From assembly GCA_025363755.1 (NCBI GenBank), contig JANYLQ010000032.1, positions 62,001 to 126,000 on the forward strand: DNA of 64,000 nucleotides, in the 5' to 3' direction. The DNA is from Hyphomicrobiales bacterium. GTDB lineage: Bacteria; Pseudomonadota; Alphaproteobacteria; Rhizobiales; Aestuariivirgaceae. How positions within the stretch are numbered: the stretch's first letter is position 1; each line of letters starts with the position of its first letter. The translations under genes were made by a program, and so were the position numbers. Shown piece by piece: positions 21,503 to 45,711 of this stretch. Below the pieces are notes generated by a model. That model was not told the DNA's origin and did not search any database. It was given only the letters and a program-made list of their open reading frames with translations.

Positions 21503-21586
21503 GTTTAGTGGTTGTGCTTCTCATTTGCAAGAAGACGGTGCGATGCGGCAAAGTGTGGTTCAAACCAATTGAAGAAAGTTTTTTCT

Positions 21587-24614: not shown

Positions 24615-24637
24615 AATAACAAACAGGGAGAACGACT

Positions 24638-25726: not shown

Positions 25727-25739
25727 GGTTTTCTGAAAG

Positions 25740-28794: not shown

Positions 28795-28868
28795 TAGGTT
28801 CCTCCAAAAACTGTTCGTTGTTTTTACCGGTCTCGATTACATTAGACTGGTTAGTTACTTAGCATTTA

Positions 28869-28882
28869 TTGGAACGTTCCAA
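28869..28882. promoter_or_regulatory. Probable LacI-family operator 1
   Basis: TTGGAACGTTCCAA is a perfect 14-bp palindrome with central CG, the usual form of LacI/GalR operators. It lies in the 196-bp gap between the divergent binding-protein gene and lacI-type regulator. A near-identical site is at 30477-30490. Confidence 0.75.
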
Positions 28883-28990
28883 ATGTCAAGTAAAAGATTG
28901 AATTTGGTGGAGTTGATGAGAACTGTAGATTTTTGGTTGTTGAAATTAGGCATACGAGCTAGAGAAGATCGTTCCATACTGGATATTTGA

Positions 28991-30061
28991 ATGCTGAAAT
29001 CGAATAAGACTTTGCGAAAATTAATGGCGGCTAAGGTATCGACCCCCAAATCTCGTGCAACAATTATTGATATTGCGCGTGTGGCGGGGGTATCGAAATC
29101 GACTGTCTCATTGGTTTTGCAAGGTAGTTCGTTGGTTCGAAAAGAAACCCGCGAAACGGTTCAAAATGTAATTGAACAATTGGGTTATGTTTACAACCGC
29201 TCGGCGGCTGGCTTACGCCAGGCAAAATCTGATTTTGCTGGCATTGTCATCGGAGATTTGAGCAATCCGTTCTTTTCGGAACTGGCAGCGGGTATCGAAG
29301 AAGTCTTGGCGGGATATAACATGTTGCCCGTTTTAGCCAACGCGAATGAAGACCCTGTTCAGCAGGCGAATGCGATTCGCGCTCTGCGCGAGCATGGTGT
29401 GGCCGGTATTGTGCTTAGTCCTGCCAGAGGAACGACAGCGTGGACAATATCGGAGTCGTTCCCCAAAGGCTTGCCCGTCGTTGTGGCAATGTGTGTGGTC
29501 GATGACTGCCCTTTTCCCTATGTTGGCCCTGATAATATTTCTGGTTTTCTTCAAGCAACCGGTCATTTAATTGAGCTTGGTCATAGGTCGATCGCTTTCT
29601 TGGGGGGTGATAACAGTTTTGCTGTCCAAAAGGAGAGAATTGAGGGCTGGCGTAAAGCGCACCGTGATGTTGGCCTGGTTGCTGATGACAGGCTGATCAT
29701 AAATTCTGCACCATCGCGGCAAGGAGGGGCAGAGGCAATGGAGATTGCGTTGTCGCACCCGCAAAAACCGACTGCAGCAGTTTGTCATAATGATGTGGTT
29801 GCACTGGGTGCCTCTCGCTTGCTTCACGAGTCTGGTTTGAGTGTTGGTCGCGACTTTTCCATTGTTGGTTTTGATGACATTGCTGAAGCTGCGTATGCAT
29901 TCCCTCCTTTGACGACTGTGAGCGTTGGCACTCGTAATATGGGGATGGAGGCGGCCAAGCGTTTGGTTCAATTGATCAAGGGCGAGGCAGTTGATTCACG
30001 CAAGTTTCTCGGAGAAACAAAATTGATTGTTCGGCAGTCTACTGGCCCTTGTAAAGTTTGA
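28991..30061 (+). CDS. LacI-family transcriptional repressor
   Basis: 356 residues. The N-terminal HTH and hinge read TIIDIARVAGVSKSTVSLVLQGSSLVRKETRE (about residues 24-55), followed by a periplasmic-binding-protein-like effector domain (FAGIVIGDLSNPFFSELAAGIEE; later HNDVVALGASRLLHESG, VGFDDIAEA). Starts at ATG 28991 or 29024 are both possible; the latter trims a non-conserved tail. It probably represses the divergent gtsA-like gene and the downstream dehydrogenase-transporter operon through the two TTGGAACG sites. The effector is presumably the transported sugar or a product. Confidence 0.88.
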   Translation: MLKSNKTLRKLMAAKVSTPKSRATIIDIARVAGVSKSTVSLVLQGSSLVRKETRETVQNVIEQLGYVYNRSAAGLRQAKSDFAGIVIGDLSNPFFSELAAGIEEVLAGYNMLPVLANANEDPVQQANAIRALREHGVAGIVLSPARGTTAWTISESFPKGLPVVVAMCVVDDCPFPYVGPDNISGFLQATGHLIELGHRSIAFLGGDNSFAVQKERIEGWRKAHRDVGLVADDRLIINSAPSRQGGAEAMEIALSHPQKPTAAVCHNDVVALGASRLLHESGLSVGRDFSIVGFDDIAEAAYAFPPLTTVSVGTRNMGMEAAKRLVQLIKGEAVDSRKFLGETKLIVRQSTGPCKV

Positions 30062-30071
30062 GAATTGAAAC

Positions 30072-30380
30072 ATGATTAGACATATCGTACTCATAAAATT
30101 CAAACCTGAAACCAGTGAAAGTCAGATCAAAGCAATTTTCATTGAGCTTGATCACATACGCTCAGAAATTTCTGGCATGGGGACAGTTCAAAGCGGACGC
30201 AGCGAGAGCCCGGAGCACATCGAACGTGGATTTATGCATGGTTTCACGATCGATTTTGAAACCTGGCAAGACCTTGGCGCATACCAGAATCACCCGAAAC
30301 ACCAAGCAACAGGTGCTAAAATTGTTGCAGCCGCGGCAGGCGGCATCGACGGCATTTTGGTTTTTGATTTTGAATTCTGA
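30072..30380 (+). CDS. Dabb-family (stress-responsive alpha/beta barrel) protein
   Basis: 102 residues, beginning MIRHIVLIKFKPETSESQI, the standard Dabb start. Other family blocks are the central HGFTIDFETWQDLGAYQNHPKHQA and the end GGIDGILVFDFEF. These small dimeric barrels often accompany sugar catabolic enzymes, and a few are enzymes or ligand-binding proteins. It starts 10 bases after the LacI gene, so the two are likely cotranscribed. Its precise role is unknown. Confidence 0.8.
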   Translation: MIRHIVLIKFKPETSESQIKAIFIELDHIRSEISGMGTVQSGRSESPEHIERGFMHGFTIDFETWQDLGAYQNHPKHQATGAKIVAAAAGGIDGILVFDFEF

Positions 30381-30476
30381 TACGCGAATTTATTTTCTCA
30401 ATATCACCCGATAGCGCCGTAAATTTGCGAGAAAATTGAGATATCTGACGCTTCAGAGATTTTTTGTTTGACTAAT

Positions 30477-30490
30477 TTGGAACGATCCAA
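30477..30490. promoter_or_regulatory. Probable LacI-family operator 2
   Basis: TTGGAACGATCCAA differs from the site at 28869 by one base. It lies 49 bases before the dehydrogenase start and so can block the promoter of the 30.5-37.3 kb operon. The two copies define a small regulon for the adjacent LacI protein. Confidence 0.75.
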
Positions 30491-30520
30491 TAGTAGACCA
30501 ATTTAATAGATCAAGAATAA

Positions 30521-31543
<1,023 letters not shown>

Positions 31544-31546
31544 ACG

Positions 31547-33058
31547 ATGTCGCATTATATTACGCCAAAAATTTTAGCAGGTTACGTTGCACCAGAGTAC
31601 ATGATGTTGATTGATGGTGCGTGGCAAAAATCGCAGTCTGGCGAAACCTCAAGCAGGCTGGCACCGGGGCACGGTACGATTGTTGGCCGTTATCAATCGG
31701 CCACGGTTGCCGACGCAAAATTGGCGATAGCATCTGCACGCAAAGCATTTGATCATGGGCCTTGGCCGCGTATGAAGGCCGCTGAGCGTTCAAAATTTTT
31801 GCATAAAGTTGCAGACTTGATTGAACAAAACCGGGAAAAAATTGCGCATTTGGACACGATTGAGAGTGGAAAACCCATTCAACAAGTTCTCAGTGAAATT
31901 GATGGCGCTATTGATATCTGGCGCTATGCCGCCTCTCTCGCGCGAACACTTTATGGCGAAAGTTACAACAATCTGGGTGAGCATACACTGGGCATAGTCT
32001 TGCGCGAACCGATTGGCGTTGTATCAATCATCACCCCATGGAATTTCCCATTCCTGATTGTTTCGCAAAAGCTGCCTTTTGCGCTCGCAGCTGGCTGCAC
32101 GGCGGTTGTTAAGCCGTCCGAATTGAGTTCAGGCTCAACTCTATTTTTGGGTCAGCTGTTATTAGATGCTGGTTTGCCAACGGGTGTTGTGAATATCATC
32201 AGCGGCAAAGGGGCGGTCTTTGGTGACGTCCTTACGGGTGATGCTGACGTTGATATGATTTCATTTACGGGATCGACTGGAGTCGGTTGTTCCGCCATGG
32301 CCATAGCGGCCAGAACGATGAAGAAAGTGTCGATGGAACTAGGCGGAAAGAATCCGCAGATTGTTTTTCCCGACGCTGACCTTGAGGCTTTTGTGGATGC
32401 GGCAGTGTTTGGCGGTTACTTCAATGCAGGGGAATGCTGCAACGCGGGTTCTCGTCTTATTGTTCATGAAAGCATCGTGGAAAATGTAACCGATCGTATC
32501 GCCAGCCTATCCAAAAGAGTGCGAGTAGGTGATCCCCTCAACCCAGAAACGCAAGTGGGTGCCATCATCACTCCCCTCCATTTTGAAAAAATATCATCTT
32601 ACATCGCGGGCGCAAAAGAAGAGGGCGCTGAAGTCGCATTAGGTGGAGAGCGCCTTGATCTTGGCATGGGTGATTATATGGCGCCTACAATTCTCACCAA
32701 CGTGAAACCAGAAATGAAAGTTGCGCATGAAGAAATTTTCGGTCCTGTCATCTCCATTTTGAAATTTGAGATAAAAACTGAAGCCCTCGACATTGCCAAC
32801 TCAACCCAGTTTGGATTGTCTGCAAGTGTTTGGTCTAAAGACATCGATACCTGTTTGGAGATATCGAGAGGCGTTCGGGCTGGCACCGTGTGGGTTAATA
32901 CATTTATGGACGGAACTCCGGAATTGCCGTTCGGAGGTGTCAAACAATCTGGGCTTGGCCGGGAACTGGGCCGTCATTCGGTAGAAGATTACACCGAGTC
33001 GAAAACACTCAACATCCATCAAGGTGCACGCACTTCATGGTGGGTTAGCAATGCTTGA
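31547..33058 (+). CDS. NAD(P)-dependent aldehyde dehydrogenase
   Basis: 503 residues, full-length ALDH superfamily. It has the NAD-binding PWNFPFLIVSQKLPFALAAGC, the glycine motif FTGSTGVG, catalytic Glu in SMELGGKNPQIVF and catalytic Cys in NAGECCNAGSRL, where two adjacent Cys replace the more common QCC. The C-terminus has PELPFGGVKQSGLGRELG. It oxidises an aldehyde to an acid; in this operon a product such as glycerate, passed on to the glycerate 2-kinase at 35976, would make sense. It starts three bases after the dehydrogenase stop. Confidence 0.9.
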   Translation: MSHYITPKILAGYVAPEYMMLIDGAWQKSQSGETSSRLAPGHGTIVGRYQSATVADAKLAIASARKAFDHGPWPRMKAAERSKFLHKVADLIEQNREKIAHLDTIESGKPIQQVLSEIDGAIDIWRYAASLARTLYGESYNNLGEHTLGIVLREPIGVVSIITPWNFPFLIVSQKLPFALAAGCTAVVKPSELSSGSTLFLGQLLLDAGLPTGVVNIISGKGAVFGDVLTGDADVDMISFTGSTGVGCSAMAIAARTMKKVSMELGGKNPQIVFPDADLEAFVDAAVFGGYFNAGECCNAGSRLIVHESIVENVTDRIASLSKRVRVGDPLNPETQVGAIITPLHFEKISSYIAGAKEEGAEVALGGERLDLGMGDYMAPTILTNVKPEMKVAHEEIFGPVISILKFEIKTEALDIANSTQFGLSASVWSKDIDTCLEISRGVRAGTVWVNTFMDGTPELPFGGVKQSGLGRELGRHSVEDYTESKTLNIHQGARTSWWVSNA

Positions 33059-33974
33059 TGACCAAACATCAAAGCAAACTTTCACCAGGGTTTTGGCAAG
33101 ACGTCGTTTTGCAGATATCCTCCCCAAACTGGTATTAGCCCCCAGTTTTGCCATTACTCTGGTGTTTGTCTACGGCTTCATATTGTTCACGGGAGCTCTG
33201 TCTTTGACAGGATCTAAACTGCTTCCCGACCTCACAAAATGGGTTGGCCTTACCAATTACGAACGACTGTTCGACCATCCAAATTGGTGGATTTCTCTTG
33301 GCAATCTCGCGATCTTTACGTGTTTATATATTACAATTTGTTCTGTTCTTGGTCTCGCACTGGCGATCCTGCTTGATCAAAAAATTCGCGGTGAAGGTGT
33401 ATTGCGCCCGATCTATCTTTATCCCATGGCGCTGTCGTTTATTGTCACGGGTGTCGCATGGAAGTGGTTTCTTGATCCCGGCATTGGCCTCGAGCATGTG
33501 ATGAAATTGTGGGGCTTTGAAAGTTTTTCCTTCCGGTGGATCAAAGACAGTCAATTTGCAATTTACACAATTGTGATCGCCGCCATTTGGCAATCTTCTG
33601 GATTTGTTATGGCGATGTTTTTGGCAGGTCTCCGCGGTGTCGATAATGAGATCATCAAAGCAGCGCAAATTGATGGCGCATCAAACTGGACGCTCTATCG
33701 CCGCATCATCATTCCGATGATGACGCCGGTCTTTTTGTCTGCGTTTGTGGTGTTGGCCCATCTTGCAATCAAGTCCTATGATTTGGTTGTTGCGATGACA
33801 GATGGTGGTCCAGGCACGGCAACATGGACGCCTGCATTGTTCATGCAAAAATTTACATTTGGTCGCAATGAAATGGGCATGGGATCGGCATCAGCAATCA
33901 TCATGTTGATGATGGTTGCTGCTGTTATCGTTCCATATCTTTATTCTGAACTTGCAAAGAAGAAATCATCATGA
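33051..33974 (+). CDS. Sugar ABC transporter permease, GtsB/UgpA type
   Basis: ATG 33051 overlaps the aldehyde dehydrogenase end by eight bases, giving 307 residues. It has six or more membrane helices and the EAA cytoplasmic loop NEIIKAAQIDGASNWTLYRRIIIPMM, which contacts the ATPase. TDGGPGTATWTPALFMQKF near the C-terminus is typical of carbohydrate permeases of this class. It pairs with the next gene. An upstream start at 33024 would lie inside the preceding gene and has no better ribosome site. Confidence 0.9.
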   Translation: MLDDQTSKQTFTRVLARRRFADILPKLVLAPSFAITLVFVYGFILFTGALSLTGSKLLPDLTKWVGLTNYERLFDHPNWWISLGNLAIFTCLYITICSVLGLALAILLDQKIRGEGVLRPIYLYPMALSFIVTGVAWKWFLDPGIGLEHVMKLWGFESFSFRWIKDSQFAIYTIVIAAIWQSSGFVMAMFLAGLRGVDNEIIKAAQIDGASNWTLYRRIIIPMMTPVFLSAFVVLAHLAIKSYDLVVAMTDGGPGTATWTPALFMQKFTFGRNEMGMGSASAIIMLMMVAAVIVPYLYSELAKKKSS

Positions 33975-34852
33975 GTTCCTCTCAGAGCCAGCAAGCTGTA
34001 AAAATGGGCTTTGCCACGCGCTTATTGGTCTACGGAATTCTATTGATAGTTGCGATCTTCTATCTTTTGCCGCTCTATATCATGATCGTGAATTCCTTGA
34101 AGCCTCTTGTCGAAATTCAGCAAGGCAACATGCTTTCTCTTCCCCATGAATGGACTGTTGCAGCGTGGTCAAGTGCTTGGTCAACTGCACAAATTGGTGT
34201 TGAACCTACAGGCCTTAAACCCTATTTCTTGAATTCTCTTTTGATGGTCGTTCCTGCCGTTTTTATCGCAACCATGCTCGGCGCCTTGAATGGGTATGTG
34301 CTTACCAAATGGCGGTTCAGAGGCAGCGAAATCATCTTCGCTATGATGTTGCTCAGTTGCTTTATCCCATTTCAAATTGTGATTATCCCATCCGCACGTC
34401 TTTTGGGATTGGCTGGTCTATCAGGAACGATCGCTGGACTGGTTGCAATCCACACGGTCTATGGTCTTGGATTTACAACATTGTTCTTCAGAAATTTTTA
34501 CGAAGCGTTTCCAACAGAATTGGTGCGCGCGGCGCAAATGGATGGGGCCAGATTTTTTCAAACATTTTGGCGCATTCTACTTCCTAATTCCGGTCCGATT
34601 ATTGTGGTTACTGTGATTTGGCAATTTACCAACATCTGGAATGATTTTCTGTTTGGAGCGTCTTTCTCCGATGCTGACTCGCAGCCGATGACTGTTGCTT
34701 TAAATAATCTCGTAAACTCTTCCACTGGCGTGAAGGAATATAACGTACACTTTGCTGGCGCTATCTTGGCCGCACTCCCCACACTTTTGGTTTACATTTT
34801 GTCGGGCCGTTACTTTGTTCGCGGTCTGATGGCAGGATCGGTAAAAGGTTAG
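33971..34852 (+). CDS. Sugar ABC transporter permease, GtsC/UgpE type
   Basis: 293 residues with about six membrane helices. The N-terminal helix FATRLLVYGILLIVAIFYLLPLY precedes IVNSLKPLVEIQQGN, standard for MalG-type permeases. The EAA loop is PTELVRAAQMDGARFFQTFWRILLP. The C-terminus YILSGRYFVRGLMAGSVKG is the hallmark end of carbohydrate permeases. ATGA overlap with the upstream permease shows coupled translation. It forms the inner-membrane channel with the preceding gene product. Confidence 0.9.
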   Translation: MSSSQSQQAVKMGFATRLLVYGILLIVAIFYLLPLYIMIVNSLKPLVEIQQGNMLSLPHEWTVAAWSSAWSTAQIGVEPTGLKPYFLNSLLMVVPAVFIATMLGALNGYVLTKWRFRGSEIIFAMMLLSCFIPFQIVIIPSARLLGLAGLSGTIAGLVAIHTVYGLGFTTLFFRNFYEAFPTELVRAAQMDGARFFQTFWRILLPNSGPIIVVTVIWQFTNIWNDFLFGASFSDADSQPMTVALNNLVNSSTGVKEYNVHFAGAILAALPTLLVYILSGRYFVRGLMAGSVKG

Positions 34853-34854
34853 TC

Positions 34855-35970
34855 ATGTCATTTCTCAACATTCAAAATCTTTCGAAAAACTATGGCACGG
34901 TGCCAGTCCTCAAGAATATCTCCTTGGAAATAGAGGAGGGTGGATTTCTGGTTCTTGTCGGGCCATCAGGCTGCGGTAAATCCACTCTCCTCAATACAAT
35001 TGCAGGATTGGAAGCAATCAACGAGGGCACAATAACGATAAGTGCAAAAGATGTTAGTCAACTGCATCCGTCTGAACGTGATATTGCAATGGTGTTTCAG
35101 TCTTACGCGCTCTATCCAAATATGACAGTCGCCGGAAACATCTCTTTTGGCATGGAAATGCGCGGCGTTCCACGCGATGAGCGAGATCGTTCCGTCAAAC
35201 AGGTTTCCGATCTTTTGCAGATTGGACATCTTCTTAATCGGAAACCGGGGCAGCTTTCAGGCGGTCAACGCCAACGTGTTGCTATGGGGCGGGCACTCGT
35301 GCGCAAGCCACAAGTATTTTTGTTTGACGAACCACTTTCCAATCTCGATGCTAAGCTCCGGGTTGATATGCGGACTGAAATTAAGCGTCTGCATCAGCGG
35401 CTCAAAACGACGATTGTTTATGTGACCCATGACCAGGTGGAGGCGATGACATTGGCCACAAAGATTGCCGTTCTGAAAGACGGCGTGTTGCAACAATTTG
35501 GATCGCCTGCTGAAATTTACAATGATCCAATCAACATGTTTGTGGCTGACTTTATGGGTTCGCCCGCGATGAATTTATTGAAGGGAAAAATGTCTGTAAC
35601 TGGTGGCAAGACTCAACTTATGCTGGGCCAAAATGAAGAGCGCTGCGTTTCGATCGACCTGAAGCAAACATCTGCTGCCCTGAAAATTTACAAAGATAAA
35701 GATGTGATTTTTGGAATCAGGCCGGAGGCGTTGACCGATTTTGCGAGCGCCTCCTACAACGGCGCGTCGATCGTCAAAGTCAATTGCCTGATTGAGGTGG
35801 TGGAGCCTGCAGGTTCTGACACTTTCGCAATTACCAAGCTCGGCGGAAAAGAGGTGGTGGCTCGTTTGCGTGCTGATGCAAATGTGCAGGCGGGGCAGTA
35901 TAGCGATCTGGCTTTTAATTTAGATAAAGCGGTGTTTTTTGATCCCACGTCGCAGTTGCGCATCGCATAG
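34855..35970 (+). CDS. Sugar ABC transporter ATPase, UgpC/MsmK/GtsD family
   Basis: 371 residues. Walker A is GPSGCGKST (about residues 37-45), Q-loop VFQSYALYPNMTV, signature LSGGQRQRVAMG, Walker B VFLFDEPLSNLD and H-loop YVTHDQVEAMT. From about residue 240 a TOBE-type regulatory domain follows (NLLKGKM, FGIRPEAL). ATPases of this class can serve several permeases. It starts two bases after the permease stop. It might also energise the polyamine permease upstream, though that class normally has its own. Confidence 0.92.
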   Translation: MSFLNIQNLSKNYGTVPVLKNISLEIEEGGFLVLVGPSGCGKSTLLNTIAGLEAINEGTITISAKDVSQLHPSERDIAMVFQSYALYPNMTVAGNISFGMEMRGVPRDERDRSVKQVSDLLQIGHLLNRKPGQLSGGQRQRVAMGRALVRKPQVFLFDEPLSNLDAKLRVDMRTEIKRLHQRLKTTIVYVTHDQVEAMTLATKIAVLKDGVLQQFGSPAEIYNDPINMFVADFMGSPAMNLLKGKMSVTGGKTQLMLGQNEERCVSIDLKQTSAALKIYKDKDVIFGIRPEALTDFASASYNGASIVKVNCLIEVVEPAGSDTFAITKLGGKEVVARLRADANVQAGQYSDLAFNLDKAVFFDPTSQLRIA

Positions 35971-35975
35971 CTATC

Positions 35976-37262
35976 ATGTCACTATCTGAGGCGCTCCTCA
36001 AAGATCCAAGGAAATTACTTGTTCAATTGTTCAATGTGGCAGTGAGTGCGGGCAACCCGCTGCCCGGAATAAAAAGACACTTGCCTGCTATGCCGAGAGG
36101 ACGAACCATTGTTGTTGGGGCCGGCAAAGCTGCGGGACAGATGGCCGAAGCACTTGAGTCTGTTTGGAATGGACCACTGGAAGGAACCGTTGTTTCTCGG
36201 CATGGGACTTCTGCGAACTTGAAGCAGATTGAGTTTCTGACAGCGTCTCATCCAGTTCCTGACGAGGCGGGTTTGGTCGCTTCCGCTAAACTGCTCGATC
36301 TGGTACGGAATCTTACAGCCGATGATCTGGTGATTGCACTTATTTCTGGTGGTGGTTCTGCACTTCTGCCAGCACCGCAAGATGGGTTATCTTTGGAAGA
36401 TGAAATATTCTTGAATGAATCTCTGCTGCGTTCGGGTGCTCCGATCTCTTCCATGAATGCAGTTCGAAAGCAGGTTTCAAAAATCAAAGGTGGAAGGCTC
36501 GCGATTGCAGCTTATCCTGCAAAGGTTGTTACGTTTGTCGTTTCCGATATTCCAGGTGATAACTTGTCGCTTGTCTCAAGTGGACCGACGATTCCAGATT
36601 CAAATACCATCCAAGATGCTTTACGATTTTTGCAACAGTTTAACATTCCGATCTCGGCTGGACTTTCTAAGTTTTTTTCGAAGGCTGATGGTGCGCCGCT
36701 ACCAACAGATGAAAGACTTGAGCGAAATGATATTTATCTTGTTGCTTCGGCGGGCCAGTCTCTGGAGGCTGCTGCTGCTTTTTCGAGAAGTCTTGGCATA
36801 CCTACATACATCCTTTCAGACGCGATTGAAGGTGAAGCTCGGGAGATTGCGAAAATGCACGCGGCCATTGCCCGTGAAATAAAACATAGAAATCAACCAT
36901 TTAACGCGCCGTGTCTATTGCTCTCTGGAGGCGAAACGACTGTAACAATCGGACAGCAAGGCGAAGGTAAAGGCGGACGCAATTCTGAGTTTCTGTTGAG
37001 TTTTGCGGAGAACATTTCGGGCATTAAAAAAATTCATTGTTTGGCAGCAGATACCGATGGAATTGATGGTTCAGAGATTAATGCAGGTGGCATTGTCGAC
37101 GGAACAACGTCTGAGCGAATTGTGAAAGCCGGTGGAAACATTGCCAAACTTCTGGCGAAACATGATTCCTGGACAGCACTTAATCTTGCGGATGATCTCT
37201 TAACCACAGGTCCGACAGGAACCAACGTGAATGATTTTCGCGCAATACTGATCACTCAATAG
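35976..37262 (+). CDS. Glycerate 2-kinase (MOFRL family, GckA/TtuD type)
   Basis: 428 residues. The N-terminal domain has IVVGAGKAAGQMAEALE and LISGGGSALLPAPQDGLSLEDE, with the conserved K and GGGSAL motifs of the family. The C-terminal MOFRL domain includes LLSGGETTVTI, GKGGRNSEFLLSFA and AADTDGIDGSEINAGGIVDGTT. These enzymes phosphorylate D-glycerate to 2-phosphoglycerate; some older annotations call them hydroxypyruvate reductases. It is last in the sugar operon, so the pathway probably delivers glycerate to lower glycolysis. Confidence 0.9.
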   Translation: MSLSEALLKDPRKLLVQLFNVAVSAGNPLPGIKRHLPAMPRGRTIVVGAGKAAGQMAEALESVWNGPLEGTVVSRHGTSANLKQIEFLTASHPVPDEAGLVASAKLLDLVRNLTADDLVIALISGGGSALLPAPQDGLSLEDEIFLNESLLRSGAPISSMNAVRKQVSKIKGGRLAIAAYPAKVVTFVVSDIPGDNLSLVSSGPTIPDSNTIQDALRFLQQFNIPISAGLSKFFSKADGAPLPTDERLERNDIYLVASAGQSLEAAAAFSRSLGIPTYILSDAIEGEAREIAKMHAAIAREIKHRNQPFNAPCLLLSGGETTVTIGQQGEGKGGRNSEFLLSFAENISGIKKIHCLAADTDGIDGSEINAGGIVDGTTSERIVKAGGNIAKLLAKHDSWTALNLADDLLTTGPTGTNVNDFRAILITQ

Positions 37263-37468: not shown

Positions 37469-39736
37469 ATGGTCAGTGCTGATAATCCAAATCGATGGCG
37501 GCGATATGCGGATTGGGACGAGCGTCCGCTGCGTTTAGACAAGTTCGCCAAGGAAGACCCGGCTAATGGATTTTCAGCCTTTTCAAGTCCTGCTGATCCA
37601 AAGCCAAGCGTGAAAATCAGCGCGGGCTCTATCGTCAGCATGGACGGTGTGTTGGCTCATGATTTCGATATGATCGATGAATTCATTGCGCGCCATCATA
37701 TTGATCCTGCGATTGCTGAAGAAGCCATGGCGATGAACTCTGGGCAGGTTGCCCGCATGTTAGTTGATATGAATGTGCCACGCGAAGCTTTGGTGCGCTT
37801 GGCGCATGGCATGACACCGGCAAAACTGGCCGATGTTGTTTCGCGTTTGAACGCGCTGGAAATTGCGTTTGCCTATTCTAAAATGCGGGCTCGTAAAACG
37901 CCTGGCAATCAGGCGCATGTGACCAATGCGAAAGACGATCCACTTCAGCTCGCCGCTGATGCGGCAACAGCGGTAGCCTTTGGTTTTGATGAAATTGAAA
38001 CAACAATGCGTGTGTCACGCAACGCATGGTCAAATGCTGTGGCTTGTGCAGTGGGTTCGGCTGTGGGGCGTTGGGGTACATTATTTCAATGTTCGAGCGA
38101 GGAAGCCGAAGAGTTGCGCATCGGTATGGCGGGCTTTACATCCTATGCGGAAACCGTTTCAGTTTATGGCACGGAGAAGACTTTTATCGATGGTGATGAT
38201 ACGCCATGGTCAAAGGCGTTTCTCGCCGCCGCCTATGCCTCTCGTGGCATCAAAATGCGGTGCACCTCTGGCGCGGGGTCTGAGTTGCTGATGGGCTTTC
38301 ATGAATCCAAATCATTGCTTTACCTCGAGGCACGCTGCTTATGCTTGCAGCGCGGTATGGGTGTGCAGGGTACCCAGAATGGCGGCATTGATGGTGCGCC
38401 TTTAACAGCCACAATTCCGGGCGGCGTTCGTGAATTGATGGCCGAAAACTTGATCGCAGTTTGGCTCGATCTCGAATGTGCGTCGGGCAATGACGCACGC
38501 TCAACTGAATCTGAAATTCGTGTGGGCGCAAAAATTCTGCCCTATCTCATTGGCGGTTCTGATCTCATCTGCTCTGGCTTCGGCTCTATTCTGGCTTATG
38601 ATAATTCTTTCAATCCATCGCTCTTTAATGGCGAAGAGATGGAGGATTATTTAGTGCTGCAACGCGATTTTGAAGCTGATGGCGGGTTGACACCTCTACC
38701 TGAATCAAAAGCAATCGATCTGCGCCGCAAGGCTGTCGATTGCATTGCTGCGGTGTTTGAAGAATTAGAGCTGGGCCAGCCCACTGCTGATATGAAACAA
38801 AGCGTTGTCATTGCTTCTGGTTCAAACGAAACGCGCAGCTATATGCCCCGCGAAGTGGCGGGTATCAGCGAGGCAATCAAAGATCGCGGTATAACGGTTG
38901 TGGATGTAATCAAGGCTTTGGCAAAACGAGGGTTCAGGGAGGAAGCCGAAAACCTTTTGAACGTTGTGAAGCTTCGTGTCTCCGGTGACTATCTGCAAAC
39001 CTCGGCCATGGTGCGACATGGAAAAGTGGTAAGTGCCATCAACGATCCCAACACATATCAAGGGCCTGGAACAGGTTACCGCGTTTCCGAATCTCGCCGT
39101 CTTGAAATCAATTCTATCCGGGATGTGCTCGATCAAGATGAAGTGCTGCGCTCTGAAGCAATGCATGAAAAAGAAGAGGCGCGGCGCATTGGTTACCGCG
39201 TGATTGGCGAGGCCCTTCCGAGCGATGATAAAAATGAAATCGTCATTGGTATCAGTCCGGCCTTTGGCTTGAAGCTTTTCCAGACGACTGCAAGCCACAG
39301 GCTTTCCGATATTTTGAAAAATATGATCACTGCAATCGAAACTCGTGGTTTGAAGGCGCGTATTGTGCGCTTCAATCACACGGCTGACACATCCTTCCTC
39401 GGGCTGTCTGCCGCGCGCCTTTCAGGCTCTGGCATTGGCATTGGAATTCAGGCCAAGGGTACGGCGGTCATCCATCAACGTGATCGTTTGCCACATAACA
39501 ATCTGGAACTGTTTTCGAACGCGCCGATTACTCAGCTCGAACACTATAAAGGTTTCGGTGCCAACGCCGCCGCTTACGCTTTAGGTGAAATGCCGGAACC
39601 CGTCGTTGTTCCGACCAGAGGAGAAGCCATGGGCTCGCGCTATCATGCGCGTGTTGCATTGATTTACGCAATTGAAACGGCGCTCACATCGGAAGGTGCT
39701 GCACCTCAAAACATCGAAGTGAAATTCAAATTATGA
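37469..39736 (+). CDS. B12-dependent diol dehydratase, alpha and beta subunits fused, altered substrate pocket
   Basis: 755 residues from ATG 37469 (TTG 37433 is possible). Residues up to about 575 align without gaps to PduC/PddA over the catalytic region, and from about 588 to the end (EIVIGISPAFG, RLSGSGIGIGIQAKGT, PHNNLELFSNAP) to the medium subunit PduD. Residues equivalent to Klebsiella His143, Glu170, Glu221, Gln296 and Asp335 are all kept. Ser301 is Asp (codon 38388-38390) and Gln336 is Ala (38495-38497), so the pocket around substrate C3 differs. The enzyme uses adenosylcobalamin to dehydrate a 1,2-diol to an aldehyde. The small subunit follows with a four-base overlap. No shell genes or reactivase are present. 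Confidence 0.88.
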   Translation: MVSADNPNRWRRYADWDERPLRLDKFAKEDPANGFSAFSSPADPKPSVKISAGSIVSMDGVLAHDFDMIDEFIARHHIDPAIAEEAMAMNSGQVARMLVDMNVPREALVRLAHGMTPAKLADVVSRLNALEIAFAYSKMRARKTPGNQAHVTNAKDDPLQLAADAATAVAFGFDEIETTMRVSRNAWSNAVACAVGSAVGRWGTLFQCSSEEAEELRIGMAGFTSYAETVSVYGTEKTFIDGDDTPWSKAFLAAAYASRGIKMRCTSGAGSELLMGFHESKSLLYLEARCLCLQRGMGVQGTQNGGIDGAPLTATIPGGVRELMAENLIAVWLDLECASGNDARSTESEIRVGAKILPYLIGGSDLICSGFGSILAYDNSFNPSLFNGEEMEDYLVLQRDFEADGGLTPLPESKAIDLRRKAVDCIAAVFEELELGQPTADMKQSVVIASGSNETRSYMPREVAGISEAIKDRGITVVDVIKALAKRGFREEAENLLNVVKLRVSGDYLQTSAMVRHGKVVSAINDPNTYQGPGTGYRVSESRRLEINSIRDVLDQDEVLRSEAMHEKEEARRIGYRVIGEALPSDDKNEIVIGISPAFGLKLFQTTASHRLSDILKNMITAIETRGLKARIVRFNHTADTSFLGLSAARLSGSGIGIGIQAKGTAVIHQRDRLPHNNLELFSNAPITQLEHYKGFGANAAAYALGEMPEPVVVPTRGEAMGSRYHARVALIYAIETALTSEGAAPQNIEVKFKL

Positions 39737-40158
39737 CCCGCAAATTGACATTGGCTGATTATCCACTGGCCGAAACCCGCAGCGCTGAAGTCAAAGGTAC
39801 ACGCGGAAAATCATTGGACGATATTTCTTTGGATGCCTTGTTGAATGGTGATGTGACCATGGAAGACTTGCGCATCACGCCAAAAGCACTGGCCGATCAG
39901 GCTGAAATTTCACGCGCTGCAAACCGTCCAACACTCGCATTGAACTTCGAACGTGCCGCTGAACTCGTGAATGTGCCGCAAGATTTTATTATGAGTTCAT
40001 ATGAATTGCTGCGGCCCGGACGTGCCAAAACAAAGCAGCAGATTTTGGATGTGGCGAAAATATTTCGGAACCAACATAAAGCGCCGGCGATTGCTGCATT
40101 CTTTGAAGAGGCGGCGGAAATCTACGAACGCCGCGGCCTTTACACCCATCGTTTTTGA
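39733..40158 (+). CDS. Diol dehydratase small (gamma) subunit, PduE-like
   Basis: 141 residues, the third subunit of the dehydratase. It has YPLAETRSAEVKGTRGKSLDDISLDAL, matching the PduE pattern of YP..E..P..V.T..GK...DI.L, then DLRITPKALADQAEISRAANRPTLALNFERAAEL and the C-terminal LRPGRAKTKQQILDVA..YE. It is helical and packs on the alpha subunit. ATGA overlap with the fused alpha-beta gene shows coupling. The N-terminal encapsulation peptide known from microcompartment PduE/PduD is not evident. Confidence 0.88.
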   Translation: MTRKLTLADYPLAETRSAEVKGTRGKSLDDISLDALLNGDVTMEDLRITPKALADQAEISRAANRPTLALNFERAAELVNVPQDFIMSSYELLRPGRAKTKQQILDVAKIFRNQHKAPAIAAFFEEAAEIYERRGLYTHRF

Positions 40159-40165
40159 GGAACCA

Positions 40166-40864
40166 ATGAACTGGAAAACTGAACACCGCTCGATCTACTA
40201 TGCAACGGCACCTGAACCTGATGATATGAAGCTTTTGCCCAGCGAAACCGCCTTGCTGGTGATTGATGTCCAAAACACCTATCTTGAAAGGCCTGACCGC
40301 GATTTGCTTTCCAAAGTCGAGCAAGCGCATTTTGATTTATGGTCTCCGTTTCATTCACGTATGCATAGTCAGGTCATCCCTCGGACGTCGGAAATTCTAA
40401 AGCTTTTTCGCGCTCATCACATCGAGTGCTTGTTCGCCCGTATTGCATCTCACACCAAAGATGGTCGGGATCGTTCCTTGTCTCAGAAAATGCCGGGATG
40501 GAATAATCTGTTGTTACCAAAGAACGATCAACCCTCGCAAATTGTGGCGCAGCTTGCACCAGTGGGCGATGAGATTGTTGTAACAAAGACAACAGACTCA
40601 GCATTGACCGGCACCAATCTGCGTTTGATCCTCCATAATCTCGGCATAAAGAATCTGATCTGCGTTGGAATTTTTACGGATCAGTGTATTTCTTCAACTG
40701 TGCGCAGCTTGGCTGATGAAAGTTTCAACGTGATTGTTCTCGAGGATTGCTGCGCGGCAGGTTCAGATGAGTTGCACAGAAAGGAGCTGGAAATCATAAA
40801 CATGATCTATTGTCATGTGATGAGCAGCGCAGAAGTTGTGCAAATGATGGGCTTGGCAAAGTAG
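40166..40864 (+). CDS. Isochorismatase-family cysteine hydrolase
   Basis: I chose ATG 40166 with GAGG just upstream, eight bases after pduE; the longer frame inside pduE is rejected. 232 residues. The catalytic triad fits: Asp in LLVIDVQNTYL, Lys in VVTKTTDSALTGTNL and Cys in GIFTDQCISSTVRSLAD. The family includes nicotinamidases, N-carbamoyl amidohydrolases and ureidoacrylate amidases, so an amide or carbamoyl C-N bond is a likely target. Within a putative amino-alcohol cluster it could unmask an N-acyl or N-carbamoyl amine. The substrate is unknown. Confidence 0.8.
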   Translation: MNWKTEHRSIYYATAPEPDDMKLLPSETALLVIDVQNTYLERPDRDLLSKVEQAHFDLWSPFHSRMHSQVIPRTSEILKLFRAHHIECLFARIASHTKDGRDRSLSQKMPGWNNLLLPKNDQPSQIVAQLAPVGDEIVVTKTTDSALTGTNLRLILHNLGIKNLICVGIFTDQCISSTVRSLADESFNVIVLEDCCAAGSDELHRKELEIINMIYCHVMSSAEVVQMMGLAK

Positions 40865-40952: not shown

Positions 40953-42467
40953 ATGTCTCAAGCAAACGCAACAGGTGCGATCGATATTTCGCATAACAAA
41001 GGCGTGGATCGCCTTCAATCCAAAGCGGTGGGCCTTATTGGTGTACTGTTTTTAACCGTCACGGGTGCAGCACCCATGTCTGCCATGTTGGGCAACGTGC
41101 CTTTCGCTGCAGGTTACGGCATTGGCTCGCATACGCCAGCTGCATTTTTGCTGGCCACCATCGTGCTTACACTCTTCTCAGTCGGCTATGCCGCAATGGC
41201 AGGACGCGTTTCAACGGTGGGTGGTTTTTATTCATTCATCAGCCAAGGACTTGGCCGTGAAGTTGGCATGTCGGCGGGTTTAACTTCCCTTGTTTGTTAC
41301 AGCATTTTTGAATCTTCCCTTTATGGCTTGTTTGCCTTTTTCGGCAACGCGTGGCTGAAATCGCATTTTGGAATTGACGTGGGTTGGCTGTGGCTGGCGC
41401 TTGCTGCTGTGATCGGCGCAGGACTATTCAGCTACCGTGACGTGAAGTTATCTGCTGCTGTTCTCGGTGTGGCGCTGGTTGCTGAAGTCGCCATGCTGGC
41501 AATTTTCGCGTTGGGCGTGGTTTTTGCAAAGACTGGCACAAATTTCAGCGGTGAATATCTCAACGTATTCAATGTCGCCGTTCCGGTGGCCGCACAAAAA
41601 GTTGGCGCGGTGGATATTCCTGTCGGTGCTGCTGCGGTTGGCATATTCATGGCCTTCTGGTCTTGGGTCGGTTTCGAGATGGCACCAAACTATGCTGAAG
41701 AATCACGCGATCCAAAACGCGTGGTTCCGCGCTCACTTTATTATTCAGTGATTGGTCTTGGTTTGTTTTACACATTGATCAGCTTTTGCGTGGTTTCTGC
41801 TTATCCAACGGAAGGTGATATGTTGGCCAAAGCGTTTAGTGACTCGGGCAACTTCTTCCTTGATCCACTCAATCAATTTGTCGGTGGATGGGCCAAGGAA
41901 CTGATGAGCTTGCTTATCCTCACCAGTTCATTTGCGTGTGGCATGGCATTCCACAACACGGCTTCGCGTTATATGTATTCGCTTGGTCGTGAGGGCGTTC
42001 TGCCTTCTGCACTCGGCAATACACATGACACTTACAAAAGCCCTCATACCGCTTCAATTGTGCAATCTGGTTTTGCTGCTTTGTGGATAGTGCTTTATGC
42101 ATTCTTCTACGGCACCAATGATCCAAATGCCCAAGCCTATCTGGGCGTTTATACGTTGTTTGCAGTGTTGGGCACTGGACTGTTGCTGGTTCTGCAAGCT
42201 GTGGTTTCCATTGCGATCATCCGCTATTTCCAAAAGAATGGCGGCGGCAATGTGTTCTCAACTATGATCGCACCCGCAATTTCTTTCGTGGTGCAACTGG
42301 TGTTGGTGTGGATGTTGATCAGCAATCTTTCAACACTGGGCGGCCAGACTTGGTTGATCTGGACTGGCGCTGCCGTGATCTTGATTGGTCTCATTTGGGG
42401 CTTTGCTTTGAAGTCGATGAACCCAACGGGTTATAACAACATTGGCCGCATGGTGAATGAAGGTTAA
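40953..42467 (+). CDS. APC-superfamily amine/amino-acid permease
   Basis: 504 residues with about 12 membrane helices. The first segment, VGLIGVLFLTVTGAAPMSAMLGNVPFAAGYG, carries the APC substrate-backbone loop (TGAAP), and SVGYAAMAGRVSTVGGFYSFISQGLG is the typical helix 2-3 region. The middle has FWSWVGFEMAPNYAEESRDPKRVVPR. Relatives import amino acids, ethanolamine or other amines. A permease for amines, not diols, next to a diol dehydratase is one clue to an amino-alcohol substrate. An A/G-rich ribosome site (GGAGGGG) precedes the ATG. Confidence 0.85.
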   Translation: MSQANATGAIDISHNKGVDRLQSKAVGLIGVLFLTVTGAAPMSAMLGNVPFAAGYGIGSHTPAAFLLATIVLTLFSVGYAAMAGRVSTVGGFYSFISQGLGREVGMSAGLTSLVCYSIFESSLYGLFAFFGNAWLKSHFGIDVGWLWLALAAVIGAGLFSYRDVKLSAAVLGVALVAEVAMLAIFALGVVFAKTGTNFSGEYLNVFNVAVPVAAQKVGAVDIPVGAAAVGIFMAFWSWVGFEMAPNYAEESRDPKRVVPRSLYYSVIGLGLFYTLISFCVVSAYPTEGDMLAKAFSDSGNFFLDPLNQFVGGWAKELMSLLILTSSFACGMAFHNTASRYMYSLGREGVLPSALGNTHDTYKSPHTASIVQSGFAALWIVLYAFFYGTNDPNAQAYLGVYTLFAVLGTGLLLVLQAVVSIAIIRYFQKNGGGNVFSTMIAPAISFVVQLVLVWMLISNLSTLGGQTWLIWTGAAVILIGLIWGFALKSMNPTGYNNIGRMVNEG

Positions 42468-42530: not shown

Positions 42531-43301
42531 ATGACAACATCATTGATGGGCCGTTCGGTTTTAGTCACAGGTGGCAGCAAGGGCATAGGTAAAGGCATTG
42601 CGCGGGTGTTTGCGGAAGCAGGAGCCAAGGTGGCAATTATGGCTCGGCATTTCGATCAAGCGCAAGCCGCAGCTGAAGACATTGGTCATGGTGCCTTTGG
42701 CATCGCAGGCGATGTCACTTTGCTCGTCAGTTTGGAAGCGGCAATGGCGAGTGTGATCAAACAAAACGGTGCACTTGATGTGCTCTGCGCCAATGCGGGC
42801 ATATTTCCGGCCGCGCGCTTAGAAGAAATGAGCGAAGCCCAATGGGATGAGGTGATGGATACAAACCTCAAAGGAACCTTTCTAACTCTAAAAGCAGCGA
42901 TCCCTTATTTGAAAAAATCAGATCAAGGTCGCGTAATCATCACATCGTCCATTACTGGCCCGGTGACCGGCTATCCCGGTTGGACACATTATGGCGCATC
43001 AAAATCCGGCCAGCTTGGCTTTATGCGAACAGCGTGTTTGGAGCTGGCCAAATATGGCATTACAGTCAACGCGGTGATGCCCGGCAATATTATGACCGAA
43101 GGTTTGGTTGGTAATGGTGAAGCCTACATCAAATCCATGGAAGCCTCGGTACCCTTAAAGCGCTTGGGCACGCCTGAAGACATCGGCCATGCCGCTTTAT
43201 ACTTCGCGTCGAAAGAAGCCGCCTATGTGACAGGCCAAACGATTGTGGTCGATGGCGGGCAGATTTTGCCTGAGAGTTTGGAAGCACTTAATCAGGCGTA
43301 A
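42531..43301 (+). CDS. Short-chain dehydrogenase/reductase
   Basis: ATG 42531 behind GGAG; 256 residues. Classical SDR: TGGSKGIGKGIARVF (cofactor loop), NAGIFP for the NAG motif, Ser in IITSSITGP, then Tyr and Lys in YGASKSG. The C-terminus YVTGQTIVVDGGQILPE is standard. It oxidises an alcohol or reduces a ketone or aldehyde with NAD(P)H. An SDR is also found beside kinase and class III PLP genes in mycobacterial aminopropanol loci, where it acts as 1-amino-2-propanol dehydrogenase; that role is possible here. Its 3' end overlaps the convergent kinase by 10 bases. Confidence 0.85.
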   Translation: MTTSLMGRSVLVTGGSKGIGKGIARVFAEAGAKVAIMARHFDQAQAAAEDIGHGAFGIAGDVTLLVSLEAAMASVIKQNGALDVLCANAGIFPAARLEEMSEAQWDEVMDTNLKGTFLTLKAAIPYLKKSDQGRVIITSSITGPVTGYPGWTHYGASKSGQLGFMRTACLELAKYGITVNAVMPGNIMTEGLVGNGEAYIKSMEASVPLKRLGTPEDIGHAALYFASKEAAYVTGQTIVVDGGQILPESLEALNQA

Positions 43302-44299
43302 TCACGCAAGTAATTATCACACAGAGCCGTGGTTCCTTCGGTGTAGGGCAGCCCCATGGATTTGGCCAAGTCTGTTTCGGAATGCGAACCAATCCACGCC
43401 ACAAGCAGCAAGCGGCGTAACATCACAAAAGTTGGGATTTCATCTGCGTCAGCTTTTGCCAGAGTTGCAGCTTTGCGGTAGCCATGCTTCCAAGCCTCGA
43501 TCAACTCCGGTACCTGTGGCTCATGTTCGTAAAATGACACGGGCGTTGCCGCATCATACATAAACCAACCAAAACCGCAGTCATCAAAATCAATGGTTTT
43601 GACGCTCTCACCATCCATCAACAGATTGGCCAAGCGCAAGTCACAATGGATTAAACCAAATCGATCCGCGCCCATGCCATAAGCCGCCAAGCGCTTGCCA
43701 ATGGCATCAACCGTACGGCCAAAGAGTTTTTGTTTTGCTGGGTCAACCCCCATGCCATCTCGCCATCTGCCCCAATGCGGTTTGTCCTCACCCAAACTGG
43801 TTTCAAAATTCCATGTCAAACGCGTGAAGTATGAAGGACGTTGCCATTGCTTTGAATGCTGATGCATCCTTGCTGTTACTTCTCCCAACACTTCAAATGG
43901 CTTTGCTAGATCTTGACCTATGCCAGGTTCCGCGCCGGTTTCCCAATCCGATAAAACCACGTGTCGCGGCGCTTCTAACTGCTTGTGACCGACCTTCTGA
44001 ATGATCTCGCCATCTAATCCCTTCACGGGTTTTGGTGTAACCACAACACCCGCATCACGCAGCGCCATCAACCACGCAAGCTCAGACTTGATTGCCGCTT
44101 TAGAATGATACCCGTCTCGGTGAATGCGCAAGGCCCAGCGCTGGCCATCTGTCGCCTCAACCTTATATGTGGCATTCTCCGACAGATTGATCATCTTCAC
44201 TGTTAAAGGCTTCGGTAAATTATAATGCGCTGTTGCGGCTTGCGCTACCTCAAGTAAAATTTGTAATTGTTCGTCATTCGGCAAAATATCAAACTGCAT
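43292..44299 (-). CDS. APH/choline-kinase-fold kinase, probable amino-alcohol kinase
   Basis: 335 residues. The ATP-binding N-lobe includes ENATYKVEATDGQRWALRIHR. The catalytic loop LIHCDLRLANLLMDG has the HxDxxxxN pattern (His, catalytic Asp, Asn), and KTIDFDDCGFG carries the metal-binding Asp. This is the aminoglycoside phosphotransferase / homoserine-kinase-like fold, which also contains ethanolamine and hydroxylysine kinases. It is translated directly after a class III PLP enzyme (TAATG overlap); that pairing is known for kinase plus phospho-lyase routes that turn O-phospho-amino alcohols into aldehydes. The actual amino alcohol is inferred only. Confidence 0.78.
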   Translation of the reverse strand: MQFDILPNDEQLQILLEVAQAATAHYNLPKPLTVKMINLSENATYKVEATDGQRWALRIHRDGYHSKAAIKSELAWLMALRDAGVVVTPKPVKGLDGEIIQKVGHKQLEAPRHVVLSDWETGAEPGIGQDLAKPFEVLGEVTARMHQHSKQWQRPSYFTRLTWNFETSLGEDKPHWGRWRDGMGVDPAKQKLFGRTVDAIGKRLAAYGMGADRFGLIHCDLRLANLLMDGESVKTIDFDDCGFGWFMYDAATPVSFYEHEPQVPELIEAWKHGYRKAATLAKADADEIPTFVMLRRLLLVAWIGSHSETDLAKSMGLPYTEGTTALCDNYLRDYA

Positions 44300-45579
44300 T
44301 ACTTGGCCTTTTCATTGGCGAACATCAATTCACGCGCGCGCGGCATGGCAGCATCGTAACGCTCCAGAATTTCGGTGCATAGCTCAGGCGAAAGTAAAAC
44401 TCCGGGCTTCCATTGCAGCACGCGCTTATCCAACGAAGAGAAAATGGCCCACACACCATTTTCATAAAGGGCCCGCGAAACAGCTACAGCCCCTTCGGGC
44501 TTGGCATATTCAAGACCAAGGATAAGCCCGCGTTGGCGCACACCTGTAAAAATATCGCCATGCCGCTTCATCATTTCGGCCATGCCATCTTTGAAGAAGT
44601 TCGTCACAGAATGAACATTTGCAATAGTTTCGGGGCGCTGCAAGATCTCGATCATTTTATGCGCTACAATGCAACCGAGCTCTGCGCCGCCTGTTGTGCT
44701 GATATGAGCTGCACCATCTTCATGCAGCCAGCCCCCCGTGCGCTCGTTCAACAAACAGGCGCTGATCGGATAGATGCCGCCTGTCAAACCCTTGGCTGTC
44801 ACCATAATATCGGGCTGAATGCCATAGGACTGCCAGCCCCACATATGCCCCGTGCGCATCAATCCGGTTTGCACTTCATCGGCAATATACATCGTGCCGT
44901 ATTTTTCACACAGCGTTTTGCAAGCGGCGAGATAACCGTCAGCCGGCATCGGAAAGCCATAAGTGGCTGGTATTGTTTCCATGATCAAGGCAGCAACATC
45001 GCCGACCTTTAAAGCATTCTCCAATGCATCCAAATCGTTGAACGGCACTTGGATGAAAACATCTGGTTGATCGGCTAAAAATATTTTCGTGAAGCGATCA
45101 TCACCTGTTGCAACCGAAAGACCGGAATGGCCGTGATAGCCTTTGATGATCGAAACAATCTTGCGCCGTTTGGTGGCATAACGCGCACTCTTCAAGGCTA
45201 TCTCGACGGCCTCTGCACCGCCCGCGCCAAAAACGGCGTAAGTCATGCCGGGCGATATATTGATCAGAGATTCAGCCAAGGCCGTGCGTGCAACCGAAGG
45301 GAACCAATGATTGCCCATATCAAAATGGTCGAGCGCGTTTTTGAGCGTATCAACAAGCTCGGCATTGCGATGGCCCAGATTATATGTGCCGCCATTCAAA
45401 TGCAGGTCAATCAGCCGCCTGCCATCCATATCATAAATGAAATAGCCCTCGCGCTTGTCGATCACCAAATCAATGCCAGCCTTGGCCCAGAATTTGGTTT
45501 TTTGGGGGTTCCAATATTTGATTGATTTCTCAATCATCTCCGCCTTGGACGAAAATTTGAATCCGCCATAGTCAAACAT
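44299..45579 (-). CDS. Class III PLP enzyme, aminotransferase or amino-alcohol-phosphate phospho-lyase
   Basis: ATG 45579 behind GGGAG, 426 residues. The fold-type I class III pattern is complete: GGAEAVEIALKSAR, the YHGHSG substrate loop, IADEVQTGLMRTG with the Asp that holds the PLP ring nitrogen, and the Schiff-base Lys in VTAKGLTGGIYP. Class III enzymes mostly transaminate omega-amines, but a subgroup eliminates phosphate and ammonia from phosphoethanolamine, phosphohydroxylysine or aminopropanol phosphate. Pairing with the kinase makes lyase activity the more likely choice. It is first of the two-gene minus-strand operon. Confidence 0.8.
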   Translation of the reverse strand: MFDYGGFKFSSKAEMIEKSIKYWNPQKTKFWAKAGIDLVIDKREGYFIYDMDGRRLIDLHLNGGTYNLGHRNAELVDTLKNALDHFDMGNHWFPSVARTALAESLINISPGMTYAVFGAGGAEAVEIALKSARYATKRRKIVSIIKGYHGHSGLSVATGDDRFTKIFLADQPDVFIQVPFNDLDALENALKVGDVAALIMETIPATYGFPMPADGYLAACKTLCEKYGTMYIADEVQTGLMRTGHMWGWQSYGIQPDIMVTAKGLTGGIYPISACLLNERTGGWLHEDGAAHISTTGGAELGCIVAHKMIEILQRPETIANVHSVTNFFKDGMAEMMKRHGDIFTGVRQRGLILGLEYAKPEGAVAVSRALYENGVWAIFSSLDKRVLQWKPGVLLSPELCTEILERYDAAMPRARELMFANEKAK

Positions 45580-45711
45580 CAAAATCTCCCAGCCCGCCTT
45601 ATTTAGCTCTGAACATCAAACATAAACTAAAGCTTGTGTCATGGCATAGGGCAATCTCAATCTGCCGTGAGGTCGCAACTGCGCGGCGCAGAACGCCAGT
45701 AACTTCAGTCG

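Follow-up and report, generated by a model that had tools for sequence, protein, structure and literature searches.

A fused diol dehydratase with an altered substrate pocket beside amino-alcohol genes in a Hyphomicrobiales bacterium: a candidate amino-diol dehydratase

We analysed a 64,000-nucleotide stretch of DNA (the window) from a Hyphomicrobiales bacterium (contig JANYLQ010000032.1, positions 62,001 to 126,000), which encodes an adenosylcobalamin-dependent diol dehydratase with its alpha and beta parts fused in one chain. The enzyme keeps the catalytic and metal-binding residues of its family and carries substitutions at Ser-301 and Gln-336, the canonical signature on the C3 side of the substrate. 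The pocket change is real and clade-wide, and the idea of an amine-bearing substrate fits the usual gene company of the enzyme. We propose, with a probability of roughly 0.4, that it may be a dehydratase for a vicinal diol with an ammonium group at C3, held by Asp-301, that would serve as an entry to an amino-alcohol module and run without a reactivase. The dehydratase genes are as follows.

37469..39736, + strand, alpha-beta fused B12-dependent diol dehydratase (PF02286 + PF02288), starting at ATG 37469, with the frame also open from TTG 37433
38390..38392, + strand, Asp codon at PddA position 301 (window residue 308), from alignment and codon reading
38495..38497, + strand, Ala codon at PddA position 336 (window residue 343), from alignment and codon reading
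39733..40158, + strand, dehydratase small (gamma) subunit, PF02287, whose own ATG overlaps the alpha-beta stop

All three domain families of the B12-dependent diol/glycerol dehydratases are present (PF02286, PF02288 and PF02287). The separate beta subunit of canonical PduCDE/DhaB is absent, PF02288 being part of the alpha chain. The NCBIfam score of the large part was 859.5, over the cut-off of 788; the medium part scored 181.1 (under the cut-off of 248) and the small subunit 168 with the best model (under 196). The closest PDB sequences were glycerol and diol dehydratases, the top five deposited as a single alpha plus beta chain; we take these five one-chain entries to be engineered. The cobalamin adenosyltransferase family PF01923 is also present in the window genome.

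The alpha part was aligned using MAFFT with Klebsiella oxytoca PddA, represented by 1DIO chain A (554 of 554 residues identical), and shares 48.6% identity with it (269 of 553 aligned positions). The offset was constant at 7 across PddA 141-374, so there is no gap between these positions. The initial annotation had claimed a gap-free alignment retaining His-143, Glu-170, Glu-221, Gln-296 and Asp-335, and this was confirmed, Q141 and S362 completing the set of conserved catalytic and calcium-binding residues. Its two pocket substitutions, S301D and Q336A, were borne out against the crystallised chain, as was the codon for Ala-336; the Asp-301 codon had been given as 38388-38390 and lies at 38390-38392. 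Further changes relative to PddA are L203S, C302G, I303A, G304P, T337R, H340E and M373S. Residues S301, Q336 and M373 are identical in the five canonical enzymes compared, and all three differ in the window enzyme.

The earlier picture of conserved chemistry with a re-cut C3 side also stands, since Ser-301 is the residue faced by the C3 hydroxyl of glycerol (PMC7674605). The mutations S301A and Q336A are tabulated in the same paper, in which the double mutant raised the Km for 1,2-propanediol from 0.06 to 2.4 mM; its text has Gln335 where its own table gives Q336A.

The signature was then followed through the relatives, taken as the best 80 of 158 found in a one-genome-per-species collection. 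All 80 keep the catalytic and metal residues and have D301, G302, A303, P304, S203, E340 and S373; A336 and R337 each occur in 79. A wider set of 90 sequences comprised these relatives plus an Agrobacterium plasmid, sampled genomes and one contig from a viral collection, with L059 dropped; not all are independent, since L088 and L011 are apparently one locus. L059 (one internal stop) and the partial L098 and L099 were excluded from the tree, the 90-sequence counts and the clustering statistics. D301 was found in 90 of 90, including distant members, while position 336 was A in 86, T in 2, S in 1 and C in 1, so that D301 is the robust element of the signature and A336 the more variable one. Position 337 was R in 88, K in 1 and A in 1 (basic in 89 of 90), and position 203 was S in 87 and I in 3. 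In a FastTree phylogeny of the alpha part, rooted on the five canonical enzymes, all 90 D301 members clustered, with a node support of just 0.596.

The changes concentrate around the C3 side. The five canonical enzymes share 301 invariant columns, and in the D301 clade 37 of these are switched and fixed at 95% or more. Five of eight columns within two residues of 301 or 336 are switched (expected 1.0, p 0.0009), as are six of 15 within five residues (p 0.005), p values that are indicative only because the regions were picked after the changes at 301 and 336 were known. Within two residues of 141, 143, 170, 221 and 362, none of 15 columns is switched.

The D301 family is mostly alphaproteobacterial. 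Six of the 398 genomes sampled from the window's phylum contained PF02286: five, all from the window's class, have fused D301 enzymes, and the sixth has an unfused 557-residue S301 enzyme. A sample of the class yielded it in nine of 385 genomes (six D301, one fused S301, two partial). Genomes G000 and G056 are common to both samples, and G588 and G719, among the 12 sampled genomes searched for the reactivase, hold partial dehydratases only. A scan of the viral collection gave one copy, 84% identical, and two of 93 plasmid records had copies at 60-80% identity, one of which was examined. L093, from the window's class, is fused and has S301, together with A336, M337 and L373, so that fusion and D301 are separable and fusion is ruled out as the cause of D301. 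A natural fused dehydratase of this second kind (S301, A336, M337, L373) lies at L100:9900-12565, in a genome of the same class; its 19.9 kb contained no neighbouring amino-alcohol genes, and its genome gave no DDR reactivase match.

The genes following the dehydratase provide independent support for the amine-bearing substrate suggested by the initial annotation.

40166..40864, + strand, isochorismatase-fold hydrolase, a recurrent neighbour in 53 of 80 loci, start picked by similarity to relatives
40953..42467, + strand, APC-family permease, whose place is taken by a PotD-type ABC (ATP-binding cassette) transporter in other loci
42531..43301, + strand, short-chain dehydrogenase/reductase (SDR), best PDB matches 3rih, 3pk0, 6ci8 and 6ci9
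43292..44299, - strand, APH-fold kinase, best PDB match 6ef6
44299..45582, - strand, class-III pyridoxal-phosphate (PLP) enzyme (PF00202), in the place of the aminotransferase-like enzyme of RMM (Rhodococcus and Mycobacterium microcompartment) loci

The kinase matched 6ef6 at E 3.4e-85 (next match 7.5e-18), and the SDR matched its four structures at E 1.2e-87 to 5.9e-83 (next 9.8e-48). We take 6ef6 to be the RMM aminopropanol kinase of M. smegmatis and 6ci8/6ci9 its aminopropanol dehydrogenase. Titles of papers on the kinase and the 1-amino-2-propanol dehydrogenase are among the references of PMC8007038. The PLP enzyme shares only 24% identity with the phospholyase-type enzyme of the Agrobacterium plasmid. 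Its nearest structures are PigE-type (4ppm is presumably PigE), putrescine and acetylornithine aminotransferases, and its position among the genes suggests a possible lyase role. On the Agrobacterium plasmid, which represents a divergent D301 lineage, a different APH-fold protein adjoins a phospholyase relative (5g4i, E 1e-105; 6tor, E 2e-100).

This company recurs across loci, which share ancestry and are not independent; identity cut-offs for neighbour counts were set after the neighbour content had been seen. Full flanks (9.9 kb or more on each side) were available for 43 loci, and 41 of these have a kinase, PLP enzyme or SDR gene. The SDR occurs in 37, the kinase in 31, the isochorismatase in 32, a glutamine-amidotransferase-like gene in 5, the window-type PLP enzyme in 22 and a phospholyase-type PLP enzyme in 7. 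An APC permease is found in 13 and a PotD-type binding protein in 23, with both in 0 and neither in 7; three of these seven (L035, L051 and L081) carry PotBC-like genes close to where the sequence ends. PduP-like enzymes occur in 13 and shell-like genes in 16 of the 43, the query BMC2, which has no Pfam match, being counted as shell-like by resemblance. When all 80 loci are counted, an amino-alcohol or amine-transport gene is present in 67; the 13 without one are all under 13 kb except L056, L057 and L067 (14.8 kb). Outside the 80, the D301 loci L104 and L105 carry the module in full or in part, as does L101, seemingly the same locus as L011. The three canonical S301 loci L084, L085 and L086 (14-18 kb) contain no amino-alcohol genes, the ABC genes of L084 being 34-43% like the queries.

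The window brings together the gene set of RMM2 loci, namely SDR, phosphotransferase, aminotransferase-like enzyme, permease and diol dehydratase. Several close relatives have shell genes between the kinase and the PLP enzyme, and the window thus looks like a shell-less RMM2-type locus. In L004 the dehydratase, gamma subunit, isochorismatase, APC permease and SDR are followed on the opposite strand by kinase, shell-like genes, PduP-like enzyme and PLP enzyme. The window order is that of L004 minus the shell and PduP-like genes, as in L002 (98% identical) and several Mesorhizobium loci (84%). L003-L007 (81-88% identical) share the window order, with shell-like genes adjoining the kinase and, except in L004, PotD-type transport replacing APC. 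The shell family PF00936 gave 0 matches in the window genome and none in the genomes of L002 and the searched Mesorhizobium loci; it is present in 27 of 48 relatives' genomes and absent from 21, the completeness of these genomes not being stated. No PduP-like CoA-acylating aldehyde dehydrogenase was found in the window locus.

In L035, L051 and L081 a single strand carries the genes for dehydratase, shell, SDR, kinase and PLP enzyme. L051 has a single co-directional run of transporter genes, SDR, kinase, PLP enzyme, PduP-like enzyme, BMC-domain protein, EutN, BMC-H, isochorismatase and dehydratase. By eye, end helices resembling encapsulation peptides were seen on a 146-residue protein (L051:7621-8061, N-terminal) and on a PduP-like enzyme (L035:5391-6965, C-terminal), and none on the dehydratase.

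The window genome gave 0 matches to the DDR reactivase family PF08841, nor was there a match to EutA as a substitute reactivase. In the genomes of 48 relatives no PF08841 match exceeded the cut-off (one weak match fell below it), and none was found in nine sampled genomes with full-length fused genes, at least one of which seems to be among the 48 too. The Agrobacterium plasmid record also gave none, the search covering the plasmid and not the chromosome. As a positive control, PF08841 was found in three of three canonical plasmid records and in one canonical genome. That Mesorhizobium, Mycobacterium and Hyphomicrobium have no reactivation factor is already in print (PMC4777399). Reactivation is described as a swap of the beta subunit, and the effect of fusion on it is called unknown (PMC7674605). 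Fusing beta to alpha would fit reactivase loss, since fusion would presumably make this swap unusable.

In the mechanism we propose, the fused alpha-beta chain and gamma subunit would use standard adenosylcobalamin radical chemistry: hydrogen abstraction from C1, migration of the C2 hydroxyl and loss of water to form an aldehyde. The substrate would be a vicinal diol with an ammonium group on the third carbon, for example 3-amino-1,2-propanediol or an N-substituted relative, with Asp-301 holding the ammonium and small residues at 336 and 373 widening the pocket. Such an amino-diol would appear to fit the pocket best, as an unproven candidate. The dehydratase would be an added entry to an amino-alcohol catabolic module of amine uptake, SDR, kinase, PLP phospholyase-type enzyme and aldehyde dehydrogenase, like RMM2 loci without the shell. 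The enzyme would run without the usual reactivase, its beta part tied to alpha. A broader proposal, which we hold more tentatively, is that the D301 clade constitutes a new substrate class of B12 dehydratase, acting on amino-diols, and accounts for the unexplained dehydratase of RMM2 loci, with or without a shell, reactivase-free as beta is tied to alpha.

Several observations weigh against an amino-diol substrate. To our knowledge, 3-amino-1,2-propanediol is not a common nutrient. The predicted fold of the enzyme had a mean pLDDT (predicted local distance difference test) of 54.7, with residues 139-409 (the barrel) below 50, and gives Asp-301 no place in three dimensions. The module also occurs without the dehydratase. 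Plasmids of Agrobacterium fabrum C58 (kinase, PLP enzyme, SDR, PotD-type transporter, isochorismatase) and A. tumefaciens CFBP5877 (the same without the isochorismatase) list no dehydratase within about 9 kb of it. Rhodococcus jostii pRHL2 has the kinase and shell genes with no dehydratase listed within about 10 kb; these gene tables are incomplete. An Acinetobacter ursingii plasmid has the kinase and an aminotransferase-family gene with no dehydratase. The neighbours therefore do not prove amine binding by the dehydratase, apparently an added entry that could have a plain propanediol role.

Some D301 loci also depart from the pattern. Despite full flanks, L056 and L057 have no kinase, PLP enzyme or SDR, and L057 has no module gene at all. 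In L064, L065, L067 and L069, all short or partial, the sole adjoining gene encodes an aldehyde dehydrogenase. In L102 a sugar-type ABC transporter is accompanied by an SDR 33% like that of the window, and neither a kinase nor a PLP gene was found in 19.9 kb; L103 has just an SDR (58%) and a PotD-like gene (72%) about 8 kb away; and sugar-type transport adjoins the divergent member L083.

In L056:2566-12696, a Liv-type ABC transporter, a glutamine-synthetase-family gene and an iron-containing alcohol dehydrogenase precede the dehydratase. Similar clusters occur in L046, the alcohol dehydrogenase also in L021, and the arrangement might be a gamma-glutamyl-amine variant. In pRHL2 (L109:2549-8038), four shell-region genes are listed twice with identical protein accessions; in between lie an aminotransferase-family gene and one for a microcompartment protein.

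The strongest alternative, less probable than an amino-diol enzyme and on balance unlikely, is a plain 1,2-propanediol or glycerol dehydratase, providing a second feed of propanal (or 3-hydroxypropanal) to an aldehyde pipeline that receives propanal from 1-amino-2-propanol. The change at all three positions uniform in canonical enzymes speaks against it, and a carboxylate next to the methyl group of propanediol would be unfavourable, although the calcium and catalytic residues are kept. The module is complete without the dehydratase, so a separate feed is possible, and the enzyme type has been published as glycerol dehydratase (PMC4777399). The RMM2 describers of 2014, Axen et al., regarded the dehydratase as unused or else the compartment as bifunctional (PMC4207490). 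Paracoccus yeei TT13 has RMM2 and grows on 1,2-propanediol (PMC8156839), but the TT13 paper reports no pdu operon and routes propylene glycol to pyruvate (PMC5773746).

Less likely again is that the substrate is a neutral or acidic diol with a longer chain or more hydroxyls, such as a butanetriol or dihydroxy-acid, and that Asp-301 binds a hydroxyl or pairs with Arg-337. The room left by small residues at 336 and 373, the basic residue at 337 and the sugar-type ABC transporters adjoining L083 and L102 are consistent with this, set against an APC or PotD-type transporter in 36 of 43 full-flank loci. If the fold worked like an ammonia-lyase, it would turn a 1,2-amino alcohol into aldehyde and ammonia with no kinase needed; this would suit the neighbourhood but is highly improbable, as the calcium ligands and catalytic residues of diol binding are kept, Asp-301 is on the C3 side, and the kinase plus PLP enzyme would be redundant.

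Directly upstream, at 27508-37262, lie sugar-type genes (binding protein, LacI, Dabb, Gfo/Idh, aldehyde dehydrogenase, CUT1 transporter, glycerate kinase), most of which show no conservation with the dehydratase. They were rejected as its pathway: seven of nine clusters occur in just one or two compared loci, and the remaining two are broad families, aldehyde dehydrogenase (10 loci) and ABC ATPase (37 loci). Further upstream, at 21512-27449, two adjoining PAD_porph-type deiminase genes precede those for a carbon-nitrogen hydrolase, an ABC binding protein and a permease, a cluster that we take to resemble agmatine-type degradation.

The RMM2 diol dehydratase has been unexplained since its description in 2014 (PMC4207490). 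With a fixed acidic pocket residue, a shared strand and order in several lineages and a contrasting fused S301 enzyme, its substrate can be tested directly. Fused enzymes that occur naturally in genomes with no detectable reactivase are also relevant to how B12 dehydratases deal with inactivation, which is known to limit the production of 1,3-propanediol and 3-hydroxypropionate. In the literature covered, which was limited to an open-access library, neither S301D nor an amino-diol as the substrate of a diol dehydratase was mentioned. On the fused enzymes, PMC4777399 cites Liu 2010.

Compared with K. oxytoca diol dehydratase (1DIO) and the glycerol dehydratases in the PDB, the window enzyme has the same domain set, catalytic and metal residues and gamma subunit; it differs in its alpha-beta fusion, in S301D, Q336A, M373S and neighbouring changes, and in the missing reactivase match in its genome. 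The fused enzymes of Mesorhizobium loti, Hyphomicrobium and Mycobacterium are treated in print as glycerol dehydratases with a "slightly different" active site and no reactivase (PMC4777399); the Mesorhizobium and Hyphomicrobium relatives compared here are fused and have D301. Calling the specificity undescribed, as the initial annotation did, was thus too strong, and its amine-bearing substrate, backed by the gene neighbourhood, remains unproven given the Agrobacterium modules without a dehydratase, the few D301 loci without a module and the possibility that Asp-301 binds a hydroxyl. RMM2 loci, in which diol dehydratases are known to occur, resemble the window in gene content (PMC4207490, PMC8217296, PMC8156839) and differ in their shell and PduP-like genes; unlike in the loci of Axen et al., the dehydratase of L035, L051 and L081 shares its strand with the rest. 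The RMM1/aminoacetone-utilisation module of M. smegmatis has kinase and SDR subfamilies in common with the window, going by the PDB identities that we assume. RMM1 is described as being without diol dehydratase genes (PMC4207490), whereas the window has one.

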